Under the pieces are notes generated by a model. It made no database searches. It had not been told where the DNA came from and was given only the letters and a program-made list of their open reading frames with translations. Below, one piece after another: positions 387 to 12,744 of a DNA stretch of 39,437 bases. Made by a program: the position numbers and the translations under genes. The stretch spans positions 1 through 39,437 of the forward strand of contig NZ_POQU01000028.1 of the NCBI RefSeq assembly GCF_002938425.1, written 5' to 3'. This stretch comes from Blastococcus atacamensis. Lineage in GTDB: Bacteria > Actinomycetota > Actinomycetes > Mycobacteriales > Geodermatophilaceae. Every line of letters begins with the position of its first letter. Positions within the stretch are counted from its first letter, which is position 1.

Positions 387-710
387 TCAGCGCGAGCCGT
401 CCCGGTCGGCCTTGCGCGCCTGGTGGGCCTCCCAGCGGGCGCGGTCCCGGGCGCGGGCACCGGCGTTGCGCTCCCACTTCTCCTTGCGCCTGAGGGCCCG
501 GGCCTGCTCGCGCTCCTCGTAGCTGTCGTGGCGGTCCCAGTCGCGCGCCATGACGACCATCGCCACCGCCACGAGCACGACGATCGCCACGAACGCGGCG
601 AGGACCCAGTCCAGCACCGCGAAGGACCCGACGGCGACGGCGATGCCGACTCCGACGACCGCCATGAGGAAGGGGGAGACGCGGCGGGTCGACGGGCTGC
701 CCTCGGTCAC
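387..710 (-). CDS. Small two-helix membrane protein with charged tail
   Basis: Predicted protein of 107 residues from a GTG at 710-708. Longer in-frame extension to 956 is possible but is Arg/Pro-rich and looks non-coding. After a short N-terminus, two adjacent hydrophobic segments (about residues 11-31 and 34-54) form a hairpin in the membrane. They are followed by a 50-residue, highly charged Arg/Glu/Ala-rich helix that probably lies in the cytoplasm and may form a coiled coil. No known domain is recognised and no clear Shine-Dalgarno sequence precedes the start. It is divergent from the STAS gene. Function unknown. Confidence 0.6.
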   Translation of the reverse strand: MTEGSPSTRRVSPFLMAVVGVGIAVAVGSFAVLDWVLAAFVAIVVLVAVAMVVMARDWDRHDSYEEREQARALRRKEKWERNAGARARDRARWEAHQARKADRDGSR

Positions 711-811
711 CGGCCCAGTATCCGCCGCGGGCCGCTCCGAGCCGGTGGTGGGCCGCCGTAACACTGGTCTCACCTGGGCTGTTCCCCGTCCGGATCGGAA
801 CCCTGCCGCGC

Positions 812-841
812 TTGCGCCGGGCCTCCCCGGGGGCCTACGGT
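812..841 (+). promoter_or_regulatory. Candidate promoter for the STAS gene
   Basis: TTGCGC (812-817) and TACGGT (836-841) are separated by 18 bases, a plausible housekeeping -35/-10 pair about 105 bases before the GTG at 947. No convincing stress-sigma-factor promoter was seen in the same interval. The rest of 711-946 holds nothing else recognisable. Confidence 0.3.
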
Positions 842-946
842 CGGCTCGACGGTTCAACAGCAGCCGTGTTCTGCCAGTGCTGTTCGTCGTGTCGTTCGCG
901 CCTCGCAGGCTCACTGGTCCGGTACACGCCCGAGAGGGGCACATCC

Positions 947-1342
947 GTGACCGCAACCTCGCTCGACCCCGCCACCACCTCGTCCGCCGGTGCGCCCAGC
1001 GTCCTCGACCTGGGCCTGGTCACCCTGGTGGTCTCCGGCCCCGCGGCCCGTCCGCGACTCCTCGCCACCGGGGAGATCGACTGCACCACCGCCCCGCAGG
1101 TCCACGCCCGCATCGAGCAGCTGCTCGACGGCGGCGCCCGTGACCTCACCCTCGACCTGACCGCCGTCACGTTCCTGGACTCCGCCGGGCTCTGCGCCCT
1201 CGCGACGCTGCACCGCCGCACCACCGCCGAGTCCGTCCGGCTGCGCGTCCTCGCCGCCACCCGCGCCGTGATCCGCCCGATGGAGATCACCGGTCTGTGG
1301 ACCCTGCTGGGCGGCCAACGGGTGGAGCCGCTCGCCTCCTGA
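947..1342 (+). CDS. STAS-domain anti-sigma-factor antagonist
   Basis: 131-residue protein starting at GTG 947 with GAGAGG about 10 bases upstream. An in-frame extension to 812 is open but begins with a Cys/Arg-rich stretch unlike the family. The core from about residue 35 is a single STAS domain. It has a beta strand ending RLLATGEID, then a helix, then DLTLDLTAVTFLDSAGLCAL, in which the serine of the FLDSAG motif is the usual phosphorylation site in SpoIIAA/RsbV proteins. Such proteins bind anti-sigma kinases when dephosphorylated and so free a sigma factor. No partner kinase is adjacent. The PP2C phosphatase at 13802-16054 is of the class that dephosphorylates such proteins, but a link between the two is inference. 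Confidence 0.88.
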   Translation: MTATSLDPATTSSAGAPSVLDLGLVTLVVSGPAARPRLLATGEIDCTTAPQVHARIEQLLDGGARDLTLDLTAVTFLDSAGLCALATLHRRTTAESVRLRVLAATRAVIRPMEITGLWTLLGGQRVEPLAS

Positions 1343-1353
1343 GGCCACGTCGG

Positions 1354-1382
1354 CCCCGCGCGGGGGACCACTGCGCGCGGGG
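1354..1382 (+). terminator. Hairpin terminator after the STAS gene
   Basis: CCCCGCGCG (1354-1362) pairs perfectly with CGCGCGGGG (1374-1382) across an 11-base loop, starting 11 bases after the STAS stop codon. A short TT follows but there is no true U-tract. Confidence 0.5.
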
Positions 1383-1459
1383 TTCCCGGCCGCGGGGCAC
1401 ACTCGCACCCGCAGTCCGGCCCGTCCGGGGCCGAAGGCGGACCTAGAAGGAGGACTCCC

Positions 1460-2677
1460 GTGCGGGATGCGGTCATCTGCGAGCCACTGCGGACGCCGGT
1501 CGGCGGATTCGGGGGATCGCTGCGCGACGTTCCCGCGCAGGAGCTCGCCGCCACGGTGATCCGGGCGCTCATGGAGCGCACCGGGCTGCCGCCCGAGTCG
1601 GTCGACGACGTGCTGCTCGGCCACTGCTATCCCACGATGGACGCCCCGGCCATCGGCCGCGTGGCTGCCCTGGACGCGGGCCTGCCCGTGACGGCGTCGG
1701 GCCTGCAGATCGACCGCCGGTGCGGTTCGGGGCTGCAGGCCGTCGTCTACGCGGCGATGCAGGTGCAGTCGGGCACCTCCGACGTCGTCCTGGCCGGCGG
1801 TGCCGAGTCGATGAGCAACGCGCCCTTCTACTCGACCGCCATGCGCTGGGGCGTCAAGGCCGGCCCCGGCGTGCTGCTGCAGGACGGCCTGGCCCGCGGC
1901 CGGGTCACCGCCGGTGGTCAGAACCACCCGGTGCCCGGCGGCATGCTGGAGACGGCGGAGAACCTGCGCCGGGAGTACAAGGTCTCGCGGGAGGCGCAGG
2001 ACGAGTACGCCGTCCGCAGCCACCAGCGCGCGGCGGCGGCCACCGAGGCCGGCCGGTTCGCCGACGAGATCGTCCCGGTGACGGTCAAGCAGCGGAAGAG
2101 CGAGGTCGTGGTCGACCGCGACGAGCACATCCGCCCCGACTCGAACGTCGAGACGCTGGCCAAGCTGCGCCCGATCATGGGCAGGGACGACGACGGGGCC
2201 ACGGTCACCGCCGGCAACGCCTCGGGCCAGAACGACGGCGCCGCGGTGGCGATCGTCACCACCCCGGAGAAGGCCGCCGAGCTGGGCCTGCGCCCGCTGG
2301 CCCGCCTCGTCTCCTGGGGCGTGGGCGGCGTGCCGCCGAAGACCATGGGCATCGGCCCGGTCCCGGCCACGGCCAAGGCGCTCGAGCTCGCCGGCATCAC
2401 GCTCGCCGACGTCGACCTCATCGAGCTCAACGAGGCCTTCGCCAGCCAGGTCCTCGCCGTCGCCCAGGAGTGGGGCTTCACCGACTCCGACTGGGAGCGC
2501 ACCAACGTCAACGGCTCCGGCATCTCGCTCGGCCACCCGGTCGGCGCCACCGGTGGCCGCATCCTCGCCACCCTGCTGCGCGAGATGGACCGCCGCGAGG
2601 TCCGCTACGGTCTCGAGACCATGTGCATCGGCGGCGGTCAGGGCCTGGCCGCGGTCTTCGAGCGGGTGGCCTCGTGA
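1460..2677 (+). CDS. Acetyl-CoA acetyltransferase (thiolase)
   Basis: 405-residue thiolase, the normal length for the family. It starts at GTG 1460 behind AGAAGGAGG (1445-1453). The nucleophilic cysteine is in RRCGSG (Cys88). The GHPVGATGG motif near residue 358 carries the catalytic His359, and Cys389 in MCIGGGQG is the acid/base residue. NEAFA is present in the C-terminal half. Thiolases either cleave 3-ketoacyl-CoA in beta-oxidation or condense two acetyl-CoA. The direction cannot be told from sequence. The stop codon overlaps the GTG of the following reductase gene, so the two are translated together; this pairing occurs in both beta-oxidation and polyhydroxybutyrate-type loci. No PHB synthase is present here. 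Confidence 0.93.
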   Translation: MRDAVICEPLRTPVGGFGGSLRDVPAQELAATVIRALMERTGLPPESVDDVLLGHCYPTMDAPAIGRVAALDAGLPVTASGLQIDRRCGSGLQAVVYAAMQVQSGTSDVVLAGGAESMSNAPFYSTAMRWGVKAGPGVLLQDGLARGRVTAGGQNHPVPGGMLETAENLRREYKVSREAQDEYAVRSHQRAAAATEAGRFADEIVPVTVKQRKSEVVVDRDEHIRPDSNVETLAKLRPIMGRDDDGATVTAGNASGQNDGAAVAIVTTPEKAAELGLRPLARLVSWGVGGVPPKTMGIGPVPATAKALELAGITLADVDLIELNEAFASQVLAVAQEWGFTDSDWERTNVNGSGISLGHPVGATGGRILATLLREMDRREVRYGLETMCIGGGQGLAAVFERVAS

Positions 2678-3426
2678 GCGCCCGGGTCGCGATCGTGACC
2701 GGTGCCGCCCGCGGCATCGGCGCCGCCACCGCGCTGCGGCTGGCCGCCGACGGCTTCGCCGTCGCGGTCATCGACCTCAGGGAGGACGACGCCCGCGGCA
2801 CCGTCGCGGCGATCGAGGCGGCCGGTGGCCGGGGCCTGGCGGTCGGTGCCGACGTCGGCGACGCCGAGCAGGTGCAGGCCGCGGTCGACCGGATCGCCGC
2901 CGAGCTCGGCCCGCCGGTGGTGCTGGTGAACAACGCCGGCGTCACCCGCGACAACATGCTGTTCAAGATGAGCGACGCCGACTGGGACGTCGTCATGCAC
3001 GTGCACCTGCGCGGCTCGTTCCTCATGACCCGCGCGGCGCAGAAGCACATGATCGACCAGAAGTTCGGCCGGATCGTGAACCTGTCGTCGACCTCGGCGC
3101 TGGGCAACCGCGGGCAGGCCAACTACGCGACGGCGAAGGCGGGTCTGCAGGGCTTCACCAAGACCCTCGCCATCGAGCTGGGCAAGTTCGGCGTCACGGC
3201 CAACTCCATCGCCCCGGGCTTCATCCAGACGGAGATGACCAAGGCCACCGCCGAGCGCATCGGTGAGGACTGGGAGGCCTACGTGGCCAAGCGTGCGGCG
3301 GCGATCCCGGTCGCCCGCGCCGGTGTGCCCGAGGACATCGCGCACACCGTCTCGTTCCTGGTGAGCGAGGGCGCCGGGTTCATCTCCGGGCAGGTCATCT
3401 ACGTGGCGGGTGGTCCGCGGAACTAG
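2674..3426 (+). CDS. FabG-like 3-oxoacyl-CoA/ACP reductase (SDR)
   Basis: 250-residue short-chain dehydrogenase starting at GTG 2674, which overlaps the thiolase stop (GTGA). It shows the Rossmann glycine motif TGAARGIG near residue 9, NNAG after the fourth strand, a serine in NLSSTSA, and the YATAK catalytic Tyr/Lys pair. The C-terminus has the usual SDR substrate-loop segment and the ISGQVIYVAGG strand. It probably interconverts 3-ketoacyl and 3-hydroxyacyl thioesters using NAD(P)H, in concert with the upstream thiolase. Acetoacetyl-CoA reductase (PhaB-like) is an alternative. Substrate chain length is not predictable. Confidence 0.9.
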   Translation: MSARVAIVTGAARGIGAATALRLAADGFAVAVIDLREDDARGTVAAIEAAGGRGLAVGADVGDAEQVQAAVDRIAAELGPPVVLVNNAGVTRDNMLFKMSDADWDVVMHVHLRGSFLMTRAAQKHMIDQKFGRIVNLSSTSALGNRGQANYATAKAGLQGFTKTLAIELGKFGVTANSIAPGFIQTEMTKATAERIGEDWEAYVAKRAAAIPVARAGVPEDIAHTVSFLVSEGAGFISGQVIYVAGGPRN

Positions 3427-3431
3427 AAGGA

Positions 3432-3480
3432 CCCCCGTGCCCCCCGCCTCGCACGCTCGGCGCGGGTCCCTGCACGGGGG
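3432..3480. terminator. Bidirectional hairpin between convergent genes
   Basis: CCCCCGTGC (3432-3440) and GCACGGGGG (3472-3480) form perfect 9-bp arms around a 31-base GC-rich loop. They lie between the end of the reductase gene (3426) and the end of the leftward DUF1206 gene (3494). Confidence 0.5.
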
Positions 3481-3493
3481 CCGTTCCAGCACG

Positions 3494-4396
3494 TCACTGG
3501 CTGGGGTCGCGGTCGGGGTACCGCGCGCGGGCGAGGGCGTAGGCCCCGAACGCGGCGAACCCGACCGCGACCCCGGCCAGCAGCCACGGTCCGGCGGACA
3601 GCCCGGCGATCGCCGTCATGGCGCCGTCCAGACCGGTGGCGCTGGTGACGTCGGCCGAGGTGGCGGCCCGCCAGAGCAGGACGCCGACCAGCCCGAACGC
3701 GATGCCCTTGGCGACGTACCCGACCCGGCCGATGCCTTCGATCAGCGGCTCCCACCGGTCGGGGGCGGCGGGCAGGTCGATGTCCTTCATGAAGCCGCCG
3801 GTGATGCCCCGGCCCAGCGTGTAGAGCCCGACGGCGACGATCCCGGCGGCGACCAGGCACACGGCCACCACGCCACCGGGGATCTCCAGCACCTCGTCGG
3901 TGAGCTCGGGCAGCCGCTCGTCGGCCTCGTACTCCAGGCCGAGCGCGAACAGCAGCGCGGTGATGCCGAGCAAGCCGTACACACCGCCCTTGGCCAGGCA
4001 CTTCGCGCAGACGATGGCGGTGCGCCGGCGCCGCGCCGGCTCGAGCAGGCCCCGCCACCAGAGCAGGATCTCGGCGGCCTGCCAGAGCCCCAGGCAGATC
4101 AGCCCCAGGCCGATGGCCCAGAGCAGCATGCGGCCGCCGGGGCCGTGGCCGACCGTCTGCAGCGCGCCGGTCTGGTCGGCGTCGGCCCCGCGCAGTCCCA
4201 GGGCCATCCGGGCGGCCAGGAACGCGATGAGCAGGTGCATGACGCCGTAGGCGATCAGGCCGACGCGGGCCAGGTGGGTGAGCACCGGGTGATCGGTGAC
4301 CTCACGGGCCCGCTGGACGGCGGAGTGCAGCCGGTCGAGGACTCCGCCTTTCCCCACCACTCGCGAGCTCGTGTCGGGACCCTGGAGCGGGGCCAT
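3494..4396 (-). CDS. DUF1206 membrane protein (second of tandem pair)
   Basis: 300-residue integral membrane protein with about six hydrophobic segments in three repeated helical pairs, the layout of DUF1206 proteins. Repeats of the pattern 'HLARVGLIAYGVMHLLI', 'GRVGYVAKGIAFGLVGVLL' and 'FAAFGAYALARARYPDR' are visible. Its ATG (4396-4394) overlaps the TGA of the upstream paralogue by one base (TGATG), so it is probably translated by re-initiation. The family is widespread in actinobacteria; its function is not established. The two tandem copies are clearly homologous but diverged, with this copy carrying a longer loop between the second and third helical pairs. Confidence 0.85.
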   Translation of the reverse strand: MAPLQGPDTSSRVVGKGGVLDRLHSAVQRAREVTDHPVLTHLARVGLIAYGVMHLLIAFLAARMALGLRGADADQTGALQTVGHGPGGRMLLWAIGLGLICLGLWQAAEILLWWRGLLEPARRRRTAIVCAKCLAKGGVYGLLGITALLFALGLEYEADERLPELTDEVLEIPGGVVAVCLVAAGIVAVGLYTLGRGITGGFMKDIDLPAAPDRWEPLIEGIGRVGYVAKGIAFGLVGVLLWRAATSADVTSATGLDGAMTAIAGLSAGPWLLAGVAVGFAAFGAYALARARYPDRDPSQ

Positions 4397-5235
4397 CAGG
4401 TGCGCTCGGGGTAGCGGGCGCGGACGAGGCAGAAGGCTCCGAACGCGGCGATCCCCAGCGCGACGAGCGTGAGCAGGATCGGCCCGGCGGGGGCGAGGAG
4501 CACCGTGTGCAGGGCGCCGTCCAGCCCGGAGGCCTTGGCCGGGTCGAAGGTGACCGCCGCCCATCCGAGCAGTCCGCCCACGAGCGCCAGTGCCACGCCC
4601 TTGCCGGGGAAGCCGACCTGTCCCAGCGTGGTGACCAGCCGGGTCGCCGTCGGCGGGCAGTCGCTGAGGTCGATCTCCTCGAGGAAGTGCTTCGTGACGC
4701 CCTTGTAGACGTGGTAGGCGCCGACGCCGAGGAGGACCAGCCCTGCCGCCGCGACGAGCCAGCGTCCCGCCGGCCAGCCGAACACGCCGGCGGCGGTCTG
4801 CTGCTGGGTGGACGAGCTGTTCTGCCCGCCGCCGGTGGCGAACCGGATCGCGAGCACCGCCAACGCCAGGTGGACGGTGGCCTTGACGACGGCCTTGCCG
4901 CTCTTCCGCAGCGCCTTCGTGCGCGCCGTGCCCGAGGCCGACCAGCCGTGCCGCCAGCGCAGGATCTCCGCGGCCTGCCAGAAGGCCAGCGCGATCAGGC
5001 CCACGGCCAGCACCCACAGCAACGGCGTACCCAGGGGCTGCTGCGCGAGGGTGGCCAGTGCCCCGGACTGGTCGGCGGGCCGGCTGTCGCCACCCCACGC
5101 CAGCTGGACTGCCAGCCACCCGACCAGCAGGTGCACCAGGCCGTAGGCGATCAGCCCGATGCGGGCGAGGTGCTCGAGGGCGTCGCTGCTGCCGGCCCGG
5201 CCCACGGCCGTTCCCGCGCTGCCCTGCACGCTCAT
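4396..5235 (-). CDS. DUF1206 membrane protein (first of tandem pair)
   Basis: 279-residue membrane protein of the same DUF1206 family as its downstream neighbour, starting at ATG 5235-5233 with AGGAGAG about 5 bases upstream. It shows the repeated signatures 'HLARIGLIAYGLVHLLVGW', 'KALRKSGKAVVKATVHLAL' and 'GQVGFPGKGVALALVGGLL' at the start of successive helical pairs. It ends in 'AFGAFCLVRARYPERT', matching the end of the second copy. It has a Gln/Ser-rich linker near residue 140 that the paralogue lacks. It forms a two-gene operon with that paralogue and is divergent from the membrane-protein/SIR2 pair. No biochemical role is known. Confidence 0.87.
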   Translation of the reverse strand: MSVQGSAGTAVGRAGSSDALEHLARIGLIAYGLVHLLVGWLAVQLAWGGDSRPADQSGALATLAQQPLGTPLLWVLAVGLIALAFWQAAEILRWRHGWSASGTARTKALRKSGKAVVKATVHLALAVLAIRFATGGGQNSSSTQQQTAAGVFGWPAGRWLVAAAGLVLLGVGAYHVYKGVTKHFLEEIDLSDCPPTATRLVTTLGQVGFPGKGVALALVGGLLGWAAVTFDPAKASGLDGALHTVLLAPAGPILLTLVALGIAAFGAFCLVRARYPERT

Positions 5236-5335
5236 GGTCTCTCCTGGTCTGGTGTCCGGCGCCGACGGTCAGCGTGGCACGGAGCACGGTGCGGTGCCTG
5301 CCCGGTCACCGGCGCGGGTGAGGGACACTGGGCCC

Positions 5336-5992
5336 GTGGCGAACGCAACCGGAATCCTGTCGGCGACCACCGCGGGGATGGCGACCCCCGCCGTCGCGCG
5401 GCGCACCTGGCCCCGCTGGCTCGCGCTTGGCCTCGCCATGGTGGCGGTCGCAGTCGTGGCGGTCGCCTGGGACGCCGCCGGTGCGCGCCTGCTGCTGGGC
5501 GCGCTCGGACTCGTCCTCGCCGTCCGGGGCGGGCAGCTGATCGGTGCGGCACGGGCCGCCGACGACGGGCCCGGAGCACCGGCGCGGTCGCTGGGTGCGG
5601 TGGCCGTCGTCGCAGGCCTCGCCGGGCTGGGCGTCGCCGTCGTCTCCGCCTCGCTGTCGGCCACCGTGCTCCTCGTGGGCGTGCCCCTGGCGCTGCTGCT
5701 CGGTTCGGCCGCCCTGCTGGTGCGCGGCGGGACCTCGGGGCGCGGCGGGCTGGCCCTGCTGGTGTGGTCGCTGCTGGTCACCGCGCTGCTGGTCGTCACC
5801 GGCGTCGCGCAGGACTGGGACCGCGCCGCGGGCCTGGCCACCGTCGTCGCGGCGCTCGGCGTCGCCGTGCTGGCCCTGCCGCTGCTCATCGGAGCGGCCA
5901 ACCTGCGCACTCTCGGTGCTCAGCCCGACCCGGCTCCGGTGCGCTCCGGGTGCGGCGGCTGCGCGTGCGGAGCCGGCGGTTGCGGGTCCTGA
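5336..5992 (+). CDS. Polytopic membrane protein with Cys-rich C-terminal tail
   Basis: 218 residues from GTG 5336. A GACACT hexamer 6 bases upstream suggests a leaderless start. The ATG giving MATPAV about 15 residues later is an alternative. About six hydrophobic segments fill residues 25-200. The protein ends in a striking Gly/Cys tail, SGCGGCACGAGGCGS, with four cysteines in 11 residues; this could bind a metal, form disulfides or be acylated. No family is recognised. The SIR2-fusion gene begins 20 bases after its stop with no terminator between, so the two are probably co-transcribed. The pairing of membrane protein and NAD-handling enzyme is discussed in the findings. Confidence 0.75.
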   Translation: MANATGILSATTAGMATPAVARRTWPRWLALGLAMVAVAVVAVAWDAAGARLLLGALGLVLAVRGGQLIGAARAADDGPGAPARSLGAVAVVAGLAGLGVAVVSASLSATVLLVGVPLALLLGSAALLVRGGTSGRGGLALLVWSLLVTALLVVTGVAQDWDRAAGLATVVAALGVAVLALPLLIGAANLRTLGAQPDPAPVRSGCGGCACGAGGCGS

Positions 5993-6011
5993 CCCGCGAA
6001 CAGGTGACGTC

Positions 6012-7619
6012 GTGAGCGGACACGTCTTCGTCGTCGGCGCGGACCTCACCCGGCTGTCGTGCGACGACGTCCTGGTGCCCACCGACCGGTCCCTTCGGGT
6101 CGCCCGTAGCTGGCGGCCCTTGCTGCCCCCGGAGCTGATCACCGAGGAGCGGGACGACGGCGACTGCCTCGGCCTGTCCTGGTCGGGGGACGAGCGGGTG
6201 CTCGAGGTCCCCGGCGACGGGCCGCGCCGGGCCTGGCTGGTGGACACCGTCGACGACCGCGGCCGCGGGTTGCCGTGGCTGCTGGACGGCGCCCGCCAGG
6301 CGCTGGCGGCCGTCGCCCGCCGCGAGGTGCCCGAGCCGGTGCACGGCCGGGCCCGCCGGTTGGTCGGTCTGCCGGCGCTGGGCACCGGCTGGGGAGGTGC
6401 GGCGGGGAAGCGTGGCGCGCTCCTGCAGGAGCTCATGCCGGTGCTGTGCGAGGCGGCGCAGGAGCACGGCTTCGACGTCGCCCTGGTGCTGCGCGGACCG
6501 AGCGACCTGGCCGCCGCCCAGCGGGTGCGGCGCGGGCGCGACGGTGACTGGGAGCTGCCCGGGCACCTGCGCCGGCTCGCCGAGCAGATGGGGGAGCGGG
6601 CCCGGCGCGGGCAGCTGGCGGTGTTCATCGGGGCCGGCGTCAGCGCGGCGGCGGGCCTGCCGACCTGGGAGCAGCTGGTCGACGAGCTGGCCGCGCGGTC
6701 CGGTCTGGACGACGCCCTGCGCGAAGGGCTGTCCCGGCTCCCGGCGCAGGATTCCGCGGCGTTGCTGGCCCGGCAGCTGGGCACGGCGGAACTGGAGGCA
6801 TTCGTCGCGCGGCGGTTCGGGCCCGGCCCCTACGCGCTGGCGCACGCGCTGATCGCCGACCTGCCGGTGCAGGAGTTCGTGACCACCAACTACGACCCGC
6901 TGGTCGAGGTCGCCGCCGGCGACATCGGTCGGGAGGTCCGGGTGCTGCCCTACGACGAGGCGGAGCCGGGCGCGCCGTGGCTGCTGAAGCTGCACGGCGA
7001 CGCCGCGCACCCGGAGAGCGTGGTGCTGACCCGCGAGGAGTACCTGCAGTTCGGCAACACCGGGGCGGCCCTCGCCGGGGTGCTGCACTCGCTGCTGCTC
7101 ACCCGGCACGTGCTGTTCGTCGGCACCTCCATGCTCGACGACGACCTGATCCGCATCGCCCACCAGGTGCGCATCGCGCTGCAGACGCAGGGGTCGGGCA
7201 CCGCGCGGCGCACCGGCACGGTCCTGGCGCTGCGGGAGGACCCGGCGCGCGCCCTCCTGTGGGAGCGCGACGTGGAGACGGTCGCGATGGGCGCCGCGGA
7301 CACCTCGCCCGCCGAGGCGGCCCGTCGGCTGGAGGTGCTCCTGGACCTGATCGGCTGCCTGTCCACGCCGCCGACCGGCTACCTGCTCGACCCGGCGTAC
7401 CGGGGGATGCTGAGCGAGGAGGAGCAGGCGCTGGCCGAGGCGCTGCGCGGGGTCGCCGAGGTGCTGCCCGAGGGGACGGTGACCAGTGCCGCGCGCGAGG
7501 TCGCCGGACTGCTCCGTCGTCTCGGGCACGGCGGCACCGCGGCCGACGGCGACGACGCGCCCGTCGACGGTGCCACCCGCCGGCGTGACGACCGCCCGCA
7601 GGAGCAGCGGCCCGGCTGA
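6012..7619 (+). CDS. SIR2-domain NAD-consuming enzyme with N-terminal macro-like domain
   Basis: 535 residues from GTG 6012 (weak AGGTGA upstream). Residues 1-165 look like a divergent macro domain. The segment VVGADLTRLSCDDVLVPTD matches the first strands of macro domains (the 'GDIT...DAIVN' pattern), and LVGLPALGTGWGGAAGKRG (118-136) matches their glycine-rich 'PAIGTG-GG' loop. Residues about 195-440 form a SIR2 fold of the defence-associated type: IGAGVS at 206-211, TTNYD with catalytic-type Asn293, KLHGD with His328, and GTS at 371-373. These Asn and His residues are the ones needed for NAD hydrolysis in ThsA-like proteins. The C-terminal 95 residues form a helical tail. The likely activity is NAD hydrolysis or deacylation; the macro-like part may sense an ADP-ribose-type nucleotide. 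The macro assignment is inference; the SIR2 assignment is firm. Confidence 0.85.
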   Translation: MSGHVFVVGADLTRLSCDDVLVPTDRSLRVARSWRPLLPPELITEERDDGDCLGLSWSGDERVLEVPGDGPRRAWLVDTVDDRGRGLPWLLDGARQALAAVARREVPEPVHGRARRLVGLPALGTGWGGAAGKRGALLQELMPVLCEAAQEHGFDVALVLRGPSDLAAAQRVRRGRDGDWELPGHLRRLAEQMGERARRGQLAVFIGAGVSAAAGLPTWEQLVDELAARSGLDDALREGLSRLPAQDSAALLARQLGTAELEAFVARRFGPGPYALAHALIADLPVQEFVTTNYDPLVEVAAGDIGREVRVLPYDEAEPGAPWLLKLHGDAAHPESVVLTREEYLQFGNTGAALAGVLHSLLLTRHVLFVGTSMLDDDLIRIAHQVRIALQTQGSGTARRTGTVLALREDPARALLWERDVETVAMGAADTSPAEAARRLEVLLDLIGCLSTPPTGYLLDPAYRGMLSEEEQALAEALRGVAEVLPEGTVTSAAREVAGLLRRLGHGGTAADGDDAPVDGATRRRDDRPQEQRPG

Positions 7620-7659
7620 GCGGGATTACCCGTCTCGACCGCTGGGCACGGCAGCGTGC

Positions 7660-8889
7660 ATGCCACGTCTGGAGAACGGCCTGAAACTGCTGGCCAAGGG
7701 CTATGCCTGGCTGCCCGACGAGCGCCGCCGGACCGGGAATCGGGCCGTCGGCGTCCGGCTGGGCGGTCTGCCGGCGGTGGGCATCGAGGGTCCCGACGCC
7801 GCGCGGTTCCTCTACGACGAGGACCACGTGCGCCGCTCGCACGCCATTCCGGAGCCGGTGCAGGGAACGCTGTTCGGCAAGGGTGCGGTGCACACCCTCG
7901 ACGGCGAGATGCACCGGGTGCGCAAGGCCATGTTCGTGGCGCTGCTCATGCGCGAGGACGGCATCGCCTTGCTCGTCGAACGCACGACCGCCGCCTGGGA
8001 CGCGGCCGTGCCCACGTGGTCGGACCGCCCGGAGATCGTGCTGTTCGACGAGGCCAGCCGGGTGCTGGCCGGCTCGGTGGCCCGCTGGACCGGGGTGCCG
8101 CTGCGCGACGACGAGGTGCCCGGCCTGGCCCGCGACCTGGTGGCGATGGTCGACGGGTTCGCGACCGGCGGGCCTCGGCACTTCCGGGCGCGACGGGCCC
8201 GCGGCCGCCGGGAGAAGTGGCTGGCCCAGCTGGTCCAGGACGTGCGCAGCGGGGTGACTCCGGTGGAGGAGGGCTCGGCGGTCGACGTCGTCTCCCGCCA
8301 TCGGGACGCCGACGGGACGCAGCTCCCCCCGCGGGTGGCGGCCGTGGAGCTGCTCAACATCATCCGGCCGACGACGGCGGTCGCCTGGTTCATGGCCTTC
8401 TCGGGGCACGCGCTGATCCGCTGGCCGGCGGAGCGGCCCCGACTGGCGAGCGGGGAACCGGCGTTCGCTGAGGCGTGGGCGCACGAGGTGCGCCGCTTCT
8501 ACCCGTTCGCCCCGTTCATCGGTGGGCGGGCGCCGCAGAAGCTGGAGTTCGGCGGCGAGACGATCCCGAAGAACGCGATGGTGCTGCTGGACCTGTACGG
8601 GCAGAACCACGACCCGCAGCTCTGGGACACCCCCTACGCCTTCCGGCCCCAGCGCTTCCTCGACCGGGAGATCGGCGCGTTCGACCTGGTGCCCCAGGGC
8701 GGCGGGGACCCGCGCACCAACCACCGCTGCCCGGGTGAGCAGATCACCGTCGCACTGCTGTCGGCGCTGGCCGTCCGGCTGGCCCGGCTGCCGTACGAGG
8801 TGCCGGACCAGGACCTGACGATCGCGCTGCACCGCATCCCGGCGAGGCCGAGGAGCGGCGTCGTCCTGCGGGTGGGTAGCTCCGCCTGA
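7660..8889 (+). CDS. CYP152-family P450 peroxygenase (fatty acid hydroxylase/decarboxylase type)
   Basis: 409 residues from ATG 7660 (no clear ribosome binding site). The heme-ligand region is QGGGDPRTNHRCPGE with Cys357. This is the CYP152 form of the motif, which lacks the usual P450 FxxGxxxC spacing. The I-helix has NIIRPTTA with Arg236-Pro237 in place of the acid-alcohol pair; in CYP152 enzymes this Arg binds the fatty acid carboxylate. HEVRRFYPFAPF is the ExxR helix. Such enzymes use hydrogen peroxide directly and need no reductase, and none is nearby. The segment LFGKGAVHTLDG places His78 where OleT-type decarboxylases have His and BS-beta-type hydroxylases have Gln, by recalled alignment. 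Substrate is probably a free fatty acid. Confidence 0.9.
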   Translation: MPRLENGLKLLAKGYAWLPDERRRTGNRAVGVRLGGLPAVGIEGPDAARFLYDEDHVRRSHAIPEPVQGTLFGKGAVHTLDGEMHRVRKAMFVALLMREDGIALLVERTTAAWDAAVPTWSDRPEIVLFDEASRVLAGSVARWTGVPLRDDEVPGLARDLVAMVDGFATGGPRHFRARRARGRREKWLAQLVQDVRSGVTPVEEGSAVDVVSRHRDADGTQLPPRVAAVELLNIIRPTTAVAWFMAFSGHALIRWPAERPRLASGEPAFAEAWAHEVRRFYPFAPFIGGRAPQKLEFGGETIPKNAMVLLDLYGQNHDPQLWDTPYAFRPQRFLDREIGAFDLVPQGGGDPRTNHRCPGEQITVALLSALAVRLARLPYEVPDQDLTIALHRIPARPRSGVVLRVGSSA

Positions 8890-8905
8890 CCGGCATGCTG
8901 ACCAC

Positions 8906-9313
8906 ATGACGAGCCGACGGTCGCGCAAGAGGCACGGCGGCCTCCGCGTGCCCGAGCCACGCGAGGGGCCGCCGACCGTCGTCTCCCTGGACTGGGACTA
9001 CGCGTACCCGTCGGTGCTCGTCGACCGCTCACCCGGCGTGCCCGCCATCGACTTCGTGGACCCGGCCGAGCTGGGCCTCCCGCCGGAGCTGGCAGAGCGT
9101 CTGGAGGAGTGGCGGGACCGGCAGGAGGCGCTGTCCGGTGCCTTCCACCGGTACCAGCCGCCGCAGACCGAGGAGGAGCGGCGCCTGGGCCGGCAGCAGG
9201 ACCGGGAGCTCCTCACCCTGGCCTGCGACGTGCGGCAGGCGCTCGCCCCCGACGTCGAGGTGCTCCTGTGGGGGCGCCCGGTCGAGGAACGGTGCCCCTC
9301 CTGGTGGATCTGA
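8906..9313 (+). CDS. Small protein of unknown function
   Basis: 135 residues from ATG 8906; a CATGCT hexamer ends 6 bases before it, consistent with a leaderless start. The protein begins with a basic stretch (TSRRSRKRHGG). It then has WDYAYPSVLVD, a predicted helix rich in Glu/Arg (residues about 60-75) and a long helical segment (about 85-110), and ends in CPSWWI. It is soluble and acidic overall after the N-terminus. No family recognised. It ends one base before the stop codon of the convergent helicase gene, with no terminator between. Confidence 0.6.
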   Translation: MTSRRSRKRHGGLRVPEPREGPPTVVSLDWDYAYPSVLVDRSPGVPAIDFVDPAELGLPPELAERLEEWRDRQEALSGAFHRYQPPQTEEERRLGRQQDRELLTLACDVRQALAPDVEVLLWGRPVEERCPSWWI

Positions 9314-9314
9314 G

Positions 9315-11624
9315 TCAGCGCGGGTCGAGGCCCTTGAGCTCCGGGGGCAGCTCGCCGGCGTGCACGACGCCGAGCCGCTGCGTGGCGCGGGTGAGCGCCA
9401 CGTAGAGGTCGTTGTGCCCGCGCACGCCCTCGGCGATGATCCCGACCGGATCGGCGACCAGGACCGAGTCGAACTCCAGCCCCTTGCTGCCCTCGGGCGT
9501 GAGCACCACGGCGCCGTCGGTCAGGTCGCCGTCCGCCGACGCGCTCGGCACGATCGCCCGCACGACGGCGGTGACCTCCTCCAGGCGGCTGAACGGCACG
9601 ATGACGGCGAGGGTGCCCGCCTCGGCGTCGAGCTCCGCGGCCGCCTCGGCGACCGCCGACGGGAGGTTCGCCTCGGGCACCTGCCACGACCACGGCAGCT
9701 CGCCGGTGGAGCGCACCGATTCCGCGGCCGAGGTGACCGCACCGCCGGCGGCGAGCACGTCGGCGGCCACGGCCATGATCTCGGCGGGCGTCCGGTAGTT
9801 GACGGTCAGCTCCTCGAGGCGCCACGAGCTGCCCAGATGCGGCTCCAGCACCTCCTTCCAGCTGGAGGCACCGGCCAGGGTGGAGGTCTGGGCGACGTCG
9901 CCGACCAGCGTCATCGACCGGGTGGGGATGCGGCGCAGCAGCACCCGCCAGGCCATCGACGACAGCTCCTGGGCCTCGTCGACGATGACGTGCCCGTAGG
10001 TCCAGGTGCGGTCAGCAGCGGCGCGCTGGGCGGTGGAGCGGCTGTCGCGCTCCTCGTGCCGTCCGGCGAGTCCCTCGGCGTCGAGCAGGTCGCCGGCGGA
10101 GAGCTCCTCGGACTCGTCCTCGGTCTCCCAGTCGGTGGAGCGGGAGCCGTGCAGCAGGTCGAGGGTCTCCTGGGCGTGCCGGAGCCGGCGCTCCCGCTCG
10201 CGGCGCTCGCGGGTGCGCTCGGCGGAGTCGTCGACGCCGAGCAGTTCGTCGGCCTCCTCCAGCAGCGGGACGTCGGCGGGGGTCCAGGGCGCCGACGGCG
10301 GGCGGAGCAGCAGCTCGCGCTCGGCGTCGTTCCACCCACGGGTGGCCGACTCCAGCCTGCGCGGGTTGGAGAACAGCTCGCCGATCAGCCGCTCGGCGGT
10401 CAGCCGCGGCCAGAGCCGGTCGGCCAGCGCGTGTACGGCGGGTTCCTGGGCGACCTCCCGGCGCAGCGCCGCGACGTCGCCCTCGCCGAGCAGGTTGGCA
10501 CCGCCCAGGACGTTCTCGCCGAGCTTGTCGGCGTACTTGCGCGCCACGATGTCGATGACCGCGCGGACGGCGGCCGGACGGGCCTCGTTGTGCATCCTCG
10601 ACGCCGCTCGGGCGCGGCTGCGGACCTGGGCGGCGTCGCCCTTGGCGAAGCGCACCGGGGTGCCGTCGATGGTGAGCGTGACCGGCTTGTCGAGCACGGC
10701 CTGCCGGTCGCGGACGGCGGTGGTGACGACGCGGACCATCGCCGCCCGCCCCTTGACCTCCGCGACCCTGGGCGCCTCCTGGGCGTGCGCCTCGAGTCCG
10801 GGCCGCAGGCCGCCGAGGTCGGTGAGCACGACGCCGGTCTCCCCGAGGGAGGGCAGCACGTCGGCGATGTAGCCGAGGAACGTGGGGGAGGGGCCGACGA
10901 TGAGCAGCCCGCTGCGGGCCAGCCGCTCGCGGTGGGTGTAGAGCAGGTAGGCGGCGCGGTGCAGGGCGACGGCGGTCTTGCCGGTGCCGGGGCCGCCCTG
11001 GACGACGAGCACCCCGCGGTGGTCGGCGCGGATGATCCGGTCCTGCTCGGCCTGGATGGTGCGGACGATGTCGCTCATCCGGCCGGTGCGGGTCGCGTTC
11101 AGCGCGGCGAGCAGCACCGACTCGCCGGCCAGGCCGGAGCGCTGGGCGAGGTCGGGATCGGTGAGGTCGAGGGTCTCGTCGGTGACCGCGACGACCGTGC
11201 GGCCCCGGGTGCGCAGGTGCCGGCGACGGCGGACGCCCAGGTCGTGGAGCGGGGTGGCGGTGTAGAACGGCTGGGCCGCGGGGGCGCGCCAGTCGACCAG
11301 CAGCGGCTCCTCGCGACCGTCCTCGGCGTTGAGCCCGATGCGGCCGATGTAGCGGGGCGTGGTGGCCTCGTGCCGGTCGAGGCGGCCGAAGCACAGCCCG
11401 TGGTCGGCGGCGTCGAGGGCGACGATCCGCTGCGAGTGCAGCTCGACGGCGGCCTCGCGCTCGCCGACCGCCTGCGGGTTGTGCGGAACGAGGGCCAGCG
11501 CGTCGGCGAGGCGGGTGACCGTCCGGGCGCGCACCTCGTCGAGCCGGCGGTAGAGCTTCCCGACGTAGTCCTGCTCTGCGGCCAGCTCGGGATCGTGCCC
11601 GTCCGGGTTCTGCACTGTCGACAA
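9315..11624 (-). CDS. helR: HelR/HelD-type UvrD-like ATPase acting on RNA polymerase
   Basis: 769 residues if started at TTG 11624; a GTG three codons later (11615) is almost equally likely. No strong ribosome binding site supports either. The N-terminus (about 11-70) is a charged helical hairpin of the kind that HelD proteins insert into the RNA polymerase secondary channel. It is followed by 'DWRAPAAQPFYTATP', typical of HelD-like proteins. Walker A is GGPGTGKT (about 210-217), preceded by the Q motif QAEQDRIIR. VDEAQELS (Walker B), GDVAQTS, VNYRTPAEI, EGSKGLEFD and YVALTRA are the remaining SF1 motifs. Known HelR proteins detach stalled or rifamycin-bound RNA polymerase and confer rifamycin tolerance. 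Function here is by homology. No rifamycin-associated element was recognised upstream. Confidence 0.85.
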   Translation of the reverse strand: MSTVQNPDGHDPELAAEQDYVGKLYRRLDEVRARTVTRLADALALVPHNPQAVGEREAAVELHSQRIVALDAADHGLCFGRLDRHEATTPRYIGRIGLNAEDGREEPLLVDWRAPAAQPFYTATPLHDLGVRRRRHLRTRGRTVVAVTDETLDLTDPDLAQRSGLAGESVLLAALNATRTGRMSDIVRTIQAEQDRIIRADHRGVLVVQGGPGTGKTAVALHRAAYLLYTHRERLARSGLLIVGPSPTFLGYIADVLPSLGETGVVLTDLGGLRPGLEAHAQEAPRVAEVKGRAAMVRVVTTAVRDRQAVLDKPVTLTIDGTPVRFAKGDAAQVRSRARAASRMHNEARPAAVRAVIDIVARKYADKLGENVLGGANLLGEGDVAALRREVAQEPAVHALADRLWPRLTAERLIGELFSNPRRLESATRGWNDAERELLLRPPSAPWTPADVPLLEEADELLGVDDSAERTRERRERERRLRHAQETLDLLHGSRSTDWETEDESEELSAGDLLDAEGLAGRHEERDSRSTAQRAAADRTWTYGHVIVDEAQELSSMAWRVLLRRIPTRSMTLVGDVAQTSTLAGASSWKEVLEPHLGSSWRLEELTVNYRTPAEIMAVAADVLAAGGAVTSAAESVRSTGELPWSWQVPEANLPSAVAEAAAELDAEAGTLAVIVPFSRLEEVTAVVRAIVPSASADGDLTDGAVVLTPEGSKGLEFDSVLVADPVGIIAEGVRGHNDLYVALTRATQRLGVVHAGELPPELKGLDPR

Positions 11625-11651
11625 CGGCCATCGCTTTCGGTGAGTCCCGGG

Positions 11652-11665
11652 GGAGCGCGTGCTCC
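11652..11665. repeat. Short inverted repeat in the helR leader
   Basis: GGAGC and GCTCC separated by four bases, 28 bases upstream of the TTG start of the helicase gene. It could be an operator or a small leader hairpin. A chance occurrence in this GC-rich sequence cannot be excluded. The remainder of 11625-11879 holds a possible TACCGT -10 hexamer (11839-11844) for the small zinc ribbon gene. Confidence 0.25.
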
Positions 11666-11879
11666 GCGCCTGCGGCGCAACCGCCCATCCTGCGCTGATC
11701 TTCCCGGTCCTGTCATGCGCGACGCCGGTGGTCCCGGCCACGTCATCGGTCGCCGGGCGGCGAGGGGCGGCGCGAGCTCATCGGGAAACCGGCCCGGAAG
11801 TGCAACTCCGACGTCACCCCGCGGACACATCCGCTCCCTACCGTTCCGGAGAAGGCAAGCGACGAGGGGAGCAGCAGCC

Positions 11880-11987
11880 ATGAGCACCGCCACGAAGGAA
11901 CGGACCACCTGGGTCTGCGACAACTGCGCGCAGGAGGTGTCCGCGGCACGCAAGCGCTGCGGCGGATGCGGGACGTCGCGCTACTGA
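11880..11987 (+). CDS. 35-residue zinc-ribbon miniprotein
   Basis: A short frame from ATG 11880 to TGA 11987 with GAGGGGA well placed upstream. The protein contains two CxxC knuckles, CDNC (residues 14-17) and CGGC (27-30), 9 residues apart, the arrangement of a minimal zinc ribbon. The rest is basic and polar. Such miniproteins may bind nucleic acid or a larger partner. It is divergent from the helicase gene and convergent with the hemerythrin-like gene. The coding call rests on the ribosome binding site, the paired cysteines and the fit between two neighbours. Confidence 0.65.
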   Translation: MSTATKERTTWVCDNCAQEVSAARKRCGGCGTSRY

Positions 11988-11994
11988 CGGCGTC

Positions 11995-12744
11995 TCAGGC
12001 GGCCGGCGGGGCGCCGCGCAGCCGGACCACGGCGGCGCGGTAACGGCCACCGCCGTAGAGCCGCCAGGCCAGCCGCGTCGAGCGGGGCAGGCCTCCGAGC
12101 AGTCGGGCCCGGTCATCCGCGCAGCAGTCCTCGAGGGCGAGTCCGAGGACGATGAGCCGCTGCCGGGCCGGGAGCCCGCATCGTGCGCCGCGGCTGATCC
12201 TGGCCCACTCGGCGTCGGTCAGGTGCGCGTCCAGCAGGGGGAGCAGGATCGCCTCCTCCTCGGTGGTCTGCGCCTCGACGTCGTCGGCCAGCGTCCGGCA
12301 GAGCCGGGCGAATCCCTCCCGAGCGGCCGGGCTGCCGGCGACGGCCCACTGCCGCGCGGCCGTGTCCAGGTCGCGCAGCTGGGCGTCGATGCCCGAGGTC
12401 GCCGCGGTCCAGGCGGCGACGGCGGCCGCGGCGTCGTCCCGGATGCCGGCGGGGACGGCGCGCAGCAGGGCCGGCCACACCGCTTCCCGCTCGACCGCGT
12501 GGTGGTGCAGCAGCACGCGGGCGATCAGCCCGGCGTGGCAGGTGAGCGTGCCGGTGCGCGCGCACTCGCCGTCGGGCGCCCAGGTGGCGACCTCGGCCAG
12601 GATCGCCAGCTCGCGGCGCACCAGCTGGTGCAGCACCCGTTCGGAGCGGCCGGCCCGTCCGTGAGGCGGCGCGGCGAGCGCCTCGTCGTCGGCGGGGCGG
12701 CGGGGTACGGGGAGGGTGACCGTGCGGAGCGCGGCGGCGGTCAT
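11995..12744 (-). CDS. Hemerythrin-like (HHE) domain protein with degraded second motif
   Basis: 249 residues from ATG 12744-12742 behind GAGGTG. The N-terminal 170 residues form a hemerythrin-type four-helix bundle: His39 in VLHQLVRREL, then CHAGLIARVLLHHHAVEREAVWPAL with His80-82 and acidic partners, then DDVEAQTTEEEAILLPLLDAHL. In the last segment a Gln/Thr stretch stands where the second HxxxE-type motif normally has its histidine, so one iron ligand seems missing. The C-terminal 70 residues carry a double cysteine (EDCC) and a basic YGGGRYR segment seen in some actinobacterial hemerythrin proteins. Oxygen, nitric oxide or iron sensing is possible, but metal binding is uncertain. Confidence 0.7.
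   Translation of the reverse strand: MTAAALRTVTLPVPRRPADDEALAAPPHGRAGRSERVLHQLVRRELAILAEVATWAPDGECARTGTLTCHAGLIARVLLHHHAVEREAVWPALLRAVPAGIRDDAAAAVAAWTAATSGIDAQLRDLDTAARQWAVAGSPAAREGFARLCRTLADDVEAQTTEEEAILLPLLDAHLTDAEWARISRGARCGLPARQRLIVLGLALEDCCADDRARLLGGLPRSTRLAWRLYGGGRYRAAVVRLRGAPPAA

Follow-up and report, generated by a model that had tools for sequence, protein, structure and literature searches.

A macro-SIR2 fusion protein in Blastococcus atacamensis

The window analysed here, a 39,437-nucleotide contig (NZ_POQU01000028.1) from the 3.89 Mb genome of the soil bacterium Blastococcus atacamensis, contains a gene that joins a macro domain and a SIR2 domain in a single protein of 535 amino acids (6012..7619, open reading frame with a GTG start; this and all features below are on the + strand). 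The closest named relatives of the protein are Blastococcus (Geodermatophilaceae) proteins, and its start, MSGHVFVVGADL, is present in 12 of 16 aligned close sequences. The fusion is real, and the genomic context of its distant relatives is a useful surprise. With slightly better than even confidence, we propose that it functions as a single-chain, ligand-gated nicotinamide adenine dinucleotide (NAD) hydrolase (NADase). An earlier note on this DNA had described a macro-like part and a SIR2 part in one chain, with a membrane protein gene 19 bp upstream, and all of this is confirmed; of its interpretation, the macro domain, the immune-type SIR2 and the position outside known Thoeris types stand, whereas the membrane protein as a module partner does not.

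The SIR2 domain (residues 181-460; 6552..7391) is of the ThsA/KomC/DSR2 type according to Pfam, PADLOC and structure matches, in agreement with the defence-type SIR2 proposed before. SIR2_2 (PF13289) is the only Pfam match of the protein (93 bits versus a cut-off of 24.5), and in PADLOC it matches ThsA best (E 4.2e-30, residues 188-393). By sequence, the top solved structures are ThsA, KomC and DSR2 chains, the first being 7uxt (SeThsA). The modelled SIR2 fold is also closest to these immune NADases, and all 50 matches listed by Foldseek for the whole model are SIR2 proteins. Conservation was assessed in an alignment of 262 homologues, 141 of them close (class A, our own cut, defined by a best match of at least 67% identity) and 121 distant (class B). 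The GAGVS NAD-binding loop (residues 207-211; 6630..6644), the catalytic-type Asn293 within T-T-N-Y-D (6888..6890) and the catalytic-type His328 within K-L-H-G-D (6993..6995), which the earlier note had pointed out, are all kept, and N293, D295, H328, G207 and G209 are each invariant across the 262 homologues. Cysteines occur only at residues 17, 52, 146 and 449, and the Zn-binding Cys set is absent. With an above-cut-off SIR2_2 domain, both catalytic residues and no Zn module, the protein has the features of a SIR2_2 member, and its SIR2 domain belongs to the immune NADase type, retaining the catalytic-type Asn and His. In the predicted model, residues 461-535 (7392..7616) comprise C-terminal helices (461-466, 469-484 and 492-503) and a low-confidence tail, in which the predicted local distance difference test score (pLDDT) falls below 50 at residues 510-523; the region past residue 460 is too short for a SLOG domain. 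The sole hydrophobic stretch of the fusion, residues 352-370, is located within the folded SIR2 domain of the model.

Structure comparison of the model with VIA-align, which is built on Foldseek's own ranking, places the N-terminal domain (residues 1-180; 6012..6551) in the macro fold rather than in an unrelated one, as the earlier description of a macro-like part had anticipated. A conserved loop, P121-x-x-G124-T-G-W-G128-G129...G135 (6372..6416), aligns to the macro phosphate-binding loop FPAISTG.YG; comparison with a profile of 25 MacroD sequences was colinear, though not clearly above shuffles. G135 is kept in all 262 homologues, G128 in 260 and G129 in 255, and neither D155 nor R173 varies. 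In place of the catalytic segments NAAN and GGGVD of MacroD enzymes, the domain has PTD (residues 23-25) and a short linker, with no Gly-rich loop following. Because the Gly-rich phosphate loop is kept and the NAAN and GGGVD segments are missing, the domain is probably a reader and not a hydrolase. Its ligand may differ between clades, since 140 of 141 class A sequences retain D11, the Asp of the GDIT type, where class B mostly has Arg (89 of 121). No canonical macro (PF01661) or ThsA_Macro (PF20016) domain was identified elsewhere in the host genome, and a profile of the macro part matched 11 of 246 genomes, including eight SIR2 fusions, one match cut at a contig end and two weak matches. In Blastococcus saxobsidens (locus L004, 8001-8567), the conserved glycine loop contains a nine-residue in-frame duplication.

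By analogy with the SLOG and transmembrane (TM)-macro domains of ThsA, the macro domain should gate the SIR2 NADase. It would bind an ADP-ribose-type nucleotide, binding would make the SIR2 domain assemble or open, as in ThsA, and the active SIR2 domain would hydrolyse NAD+, potentially resulting in a growth stop of the infected or stressed cell. If right, this would make the macro domain an added sensor type for immune SIR2 NADases, and this small, soluble, single-gene protein would offer a means to ask whether ADP-ribose itself is a bacterial immune signal.

Genomic context of the distant relatives

Class B fusions are patchily distributed, occurring in 7 of 112 Geodermatophilaceae genomes (three as second copies), in 7 of 149 genomes of the family of genome G446 and in 11 of 201 genomes of the family of genome G214. 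Of 394 genomes sampled across the class, 13 encode a full-length or near-full-length fusion, and two of these belong to class A. We inspected 31 class B loci, most of about 17.5 kb, of which 18 were seen first and 13 were fetched later. A homologue of ADP-ribosylglycohydrolase (ARG) was identified in 15 of the 31, often together with homologues of ARPP-1, NUDIX, HD_4, TY-Chap and REase-ARP. ARG was found in 12 of the first 18 loci, a discovery count that includes six loci which gave seeds, and in 3 of the 13 later loci; without the six seed loci, the former count is 6 of 12. The seeds were drawn from seven of the first 18 loci (six for the core families), most being identified by Pfam and the second ARG and ARPP seeds by BLAST clustering only. 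No ARG gene was detected in 27 random regions (from ten of the same genomes, large contigs only), 20 loci with other SIR2 genes or 19 class A loci; Fisher tests on these counts treat the loci as independent, several class B loci come from one genus, and our home-made gene calls cut or miss some genes. Among the ARG-free class B loci read, no partner is common across genera.

Iyer et al. (2022; PMC9503650, section 3.8) predicted that ARG-centred systems counteract ADP-ribosylation by viruses. These systems were sought by the absence of coupled ADP-ribosyltransferases (ARTs) or sirtuins, and Macro and NADAR genes are among their accessory members (PMC9503650). Because the class B fusion is often located near ARG-centred genes, ADP-ribose, or a derivative of it, released from modified macromolecules may serve as its signal. 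If right, immune SIR2 NADases would be tied to gene clusters of proposed anti-viral function that were found by a search excluding sirtuins. Support for a defence or NAD-signalling role is indirect and comes solely from this context of the distant relatives.

A bolder extension, which we regard as unlikely, is that macro-SIR2 proteins represent a third type of nucleotide-gated SIR2 effector, in which the macro domain would sense ADP-ribose or a derivative, set free when phage enzymes ADP-ribosylate host macromolecules and the neighbouring glycohydrolase cleans these, and the SIR2 domain would deplete NAD+, without a dedicated signal synthase. On this view, ARG clusters would act as guards that carry their own suicide switch, and the clade in Geodermatophilaceae would be a variant that stands alone and is stably inherited.

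Carriage by phages or plasmids was rejected: a class B query had no match among 50,697 phage records, plasmids yielded only partial SIR2 matches, in 8 records, none covering more than 45% of the query, and viral contigs yielded at least four partial SIR2 matches at 25-26% identity. At one class B locus (L167, 3522-6866), the fusion lies two genes downstream of a gene that we take to encode a large SMC-like ATPase resembling Wadjet JetC. A class B relative from Gordonia (P0234, 706 amino acids) carries an extra domain annotated as an 8-oxoguanine DNA glycosylase fold (PF21790).

Inheritance of the window clade

The class A fusions share a chromosomal neighbourhood, and sixteen of them that were included as rows form one clade with a Shimodaira-Hasegawa-like approximate likelihood ratio test (SH-aLRT) value of 100. 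In the window, a cytochrome P450 gene (7660..8889; Pfam p450, 3.8e-16) starts 40 bp downstream of the fusion, an arrangement found in most class A loci read. A PADLOC scan of ten proteins encoded at 387-12744 gave no match at E <= 0.001 except for partial helicase matches of a UvrD-like protein (best E 2.9e-11). Across 22 loci, pairwise distances of the fusion correlate with those of UvrD (r 0.93), P450 (0.92), DUF1206 (0.81), FabG (0.79) and thiolase (0.77), and with those of the membrane gene across 11 loci (0.88); control correlations among neighbours range from 0.64 (P450-thiolase) to 0.92 (P450-UvrD). The median distance is 0.22 for the fusion, 0.23-0.28 for P450, UvrD, DUF1206 and the membrane gene, and 0.09-0.10 for thiolase and FabG. 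Among the 64 class A copies, three (G005, G007 and G018) are divided between two frames, whereas two more (G090 and G093) have one in-frame stop within the match, either of which may reflect decay or assembly error. The picture that emerges is of one old gene, mostly vertically inherited and lost or broken several times, with repeated gain as a further possibility. The window copy is the least defence-like member; across class A, inheritance is mostly vertical, the chromosomal gene is dispensable and its neighbours are probably incidental.

Several of these observations weigh against a ligand-gated immune NADase. Class A follows vertical inheritance, as indicated by the UvrD and P450 correlations, and its fusion shows no higher evolutionary rate than the genes directly around it, in contrast to what is typical of arms-race genes. 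ARG genes are lacking from all 19 loci of the window clade, and 16 of the 31 class B loci, including all nine later loci from the family of G214, contain no ARG-cluster core gene. Furthermore, no signal-making enzyme was identified, and enzymatic activity, ligand and defence phenotype are argued by analogy. The conserved macro loop is the lowest-confidence part in both models (pLDDT 72, the lowest within the domain), and the D11 difference suggests that ligands may not be the same in the two classes.

The same data bear on the possibility that the Geodermatophilaceae gene is a housekeeping regulator of NAD or ADP-ribose under stress, such as desiccation or DNA damage, and does not function in phage defence. 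The vertical inheritance of the single, fully supported clade, its unexceptional rate, the shared neighbourhood without ARG genes and the near absence of PADLOC matches among the ten neighbours are all consistent with such a role. However, the gene is dispensable, being absent from 38 of the 102 family genomes that carry the membrane gene, three copies are broken between two frames, and the active-site residues are those of NADases. We consider this role rather unlikely.

Quite unlikely in our assessment is a self-contained writer/eraser or metabolite enzyme resembling the fungal protein Mfs1, in which the SIR2 domain would transfer ADP-ribose or deacylate and the macro domain would remove or process the product. 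Mfs1 does combine macro and sirtuin domains in one chain (PMC4518038, PMC11490716), and both domains are conserved together across the 262 homologues of the fusion. However, in class M sirtuins (SirTMs) the catalytic His is substituted by Gln, whereas every homologue of the fusion retains it, and the missing Zn-binding cysteines, the replaced NAAN and GGGVD segments and a SIR2 part nearest to immune NADases also count against such an enzyme.

The neighbouring membrane protein

The gene upstream of the fusion (5336..5992) encodes a six-helix membrane protein of 218 amino acids with no Pfam, PADLOC or NCBIfam match at E <= 1. It ends in a Cys tail, C-x2-C-x-C-x4-C (residues 206-217; 5951..5986), in which C206, C209, C211 and C216 are invariant among seven aligned orthologues, one of them with two extra residues in the last spacing. 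This tail resembles a metal or redox site.

The earlier note had paired this protein with the fusion. Within Geodermatophilaceae, 102 of 112 genomes carry the membrane gene (92 of the 96 good genomes) and 64 of 112 the window-type fusion (69 of 112 when any match is counted). All 64 genomes with the fusion also encode the membrane protein, as expected of a gene this common, and 38 genomes carry the membrane gene alone. Twenty of these 38 membrane-only loci were read: none contains a fusion match, 15 retain the P450 gene near the membrane gene (three with a gene encoding 228 amino acids in between), and five have no P450 match. At one locus (L209), tblastn missed the membrane gene, which was found there by the family-wide search. 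The match-to-match gap between the two genes, obtained for 52 of the 64 genomes, does not exceed 120 bp in 39, amounts to 328 bp in one and is longer than 1 kb in 12; excluded from this measurement were the window, matches that were split or partial, and genomes G046 and G060, in both of which the genes are also close. Nine of the 12 distant pairs belong to one genus (g9), which we take for Modestobacter by likeness to loci L015 and L016. In four loci (L015 and L016, both 7318-8004, L076 and L077), the 228-amino-acid gene (218 amino acids in L076) overlaps the fusion start by 4 bp. This gene persists without the fusion in L218, L222 and L226, and its L015 product has no Pfam match. A consensus scan of the interval between membrane gene and fusion in the window found no terminator-like site, which speaks neither for nor against an operon. 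No membrane-protein match occurs in the first 18 class B loci. Ten of the 13 later class B loci were viewed by eye; two have a small two-helix protein upstream, which was not compared.

The membrane gene is a near-universal neighbour and not an obligate partner of the fusion, because it is present in 38 fusion-free genomes and is separated from the fusion by over 1 kb in 12 of the 52 genomes measured. Joint action of the Cys-tailed membrane protein and the fusion as a two-gene immune module was therefore rejected as the principal explanation and appears very improbable: the 19 bp spacing on one strand, the lack of a terminator-like site in the consensus scan, the constant co-presence and the short gaps in 39 genomes favour it, but the near-universal distribution, the 12 distant pairs, the other gene overlapping the fusion start and the absence near the first 18 class B fusions oppose it.

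Comparison with known systems

Two types of ThsA provide the closest functional parallels. In the SIR2-SLOG protein of type I Thoeris, cyclic ADP-ribose isomers activate the NADase via the SLOG domain, and the macro domains of the TM-macro protein bind ADP-ribose and IAD (PMC11204291). In the fusion, an N-terminal macro domain replaces the C-terminal SLOG domain of type I ThsA. ThsB (PF08937, the one TIR family searched for) was not found in the host genome and is not associated with the fusion at the family level (11 of 64 genomes with versus 7 of 48 without). The fusion resembles type II ThsA in having a macro domain as presumed reader of an ADP-ribose-type nucleotide but differs in lacking a TM region and in using SIR2 as effector; furthermore, it has no match to ThsA_Macro (PF20016) at E <= 1. 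Membership in Thoeris was rejected on these grounds, in keeping with the earlier view that this combination lies outside the known types. KomC/HAM-SIR2 and DSR2 differ in having no macro domain in the parts of the literature consulted and in relying on other partners or sensors (KomB and dITP, and recognition of the phage tail tube, respectively).

The architecture of Mfs1, in which macro and sirtuin domains share one polypeptide, is similar to that of the fusion. SirTMs contain a structural Zn, and the associated Zn-Macro domains a Zn loop (PMC4518038, PMC11490716). In contrast to these proteins, the fusion keeps its His and lacks the Zn-binding cysteines, and membership in SirTM/Mfs1 was rejected. 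ARG-centred systems contain the same kinds of genes as are found near the distant relatives in 15 of 31 loci, but were sought by the absence of coupled ARTs or sirtuins, and the window copy has no such gene nearby. In the parts consulted, the open-access literature on macro and SIR2 combinations covers bacterial SirTM/macro pairs, fungal Mfs1 and two-gene sirtuin-Macro systems of phages. The legend of Extended Data Fig. 2 in PMC12700824 lists 'Macro' among the extra domains of SIR2_2 proteins, which indicates that the macro-SIR2_2 architecture has already been noticed by others. By analogy, the fusion would work like ThsA, yet its features place it outside both Thoeris and the class M sirtuins.
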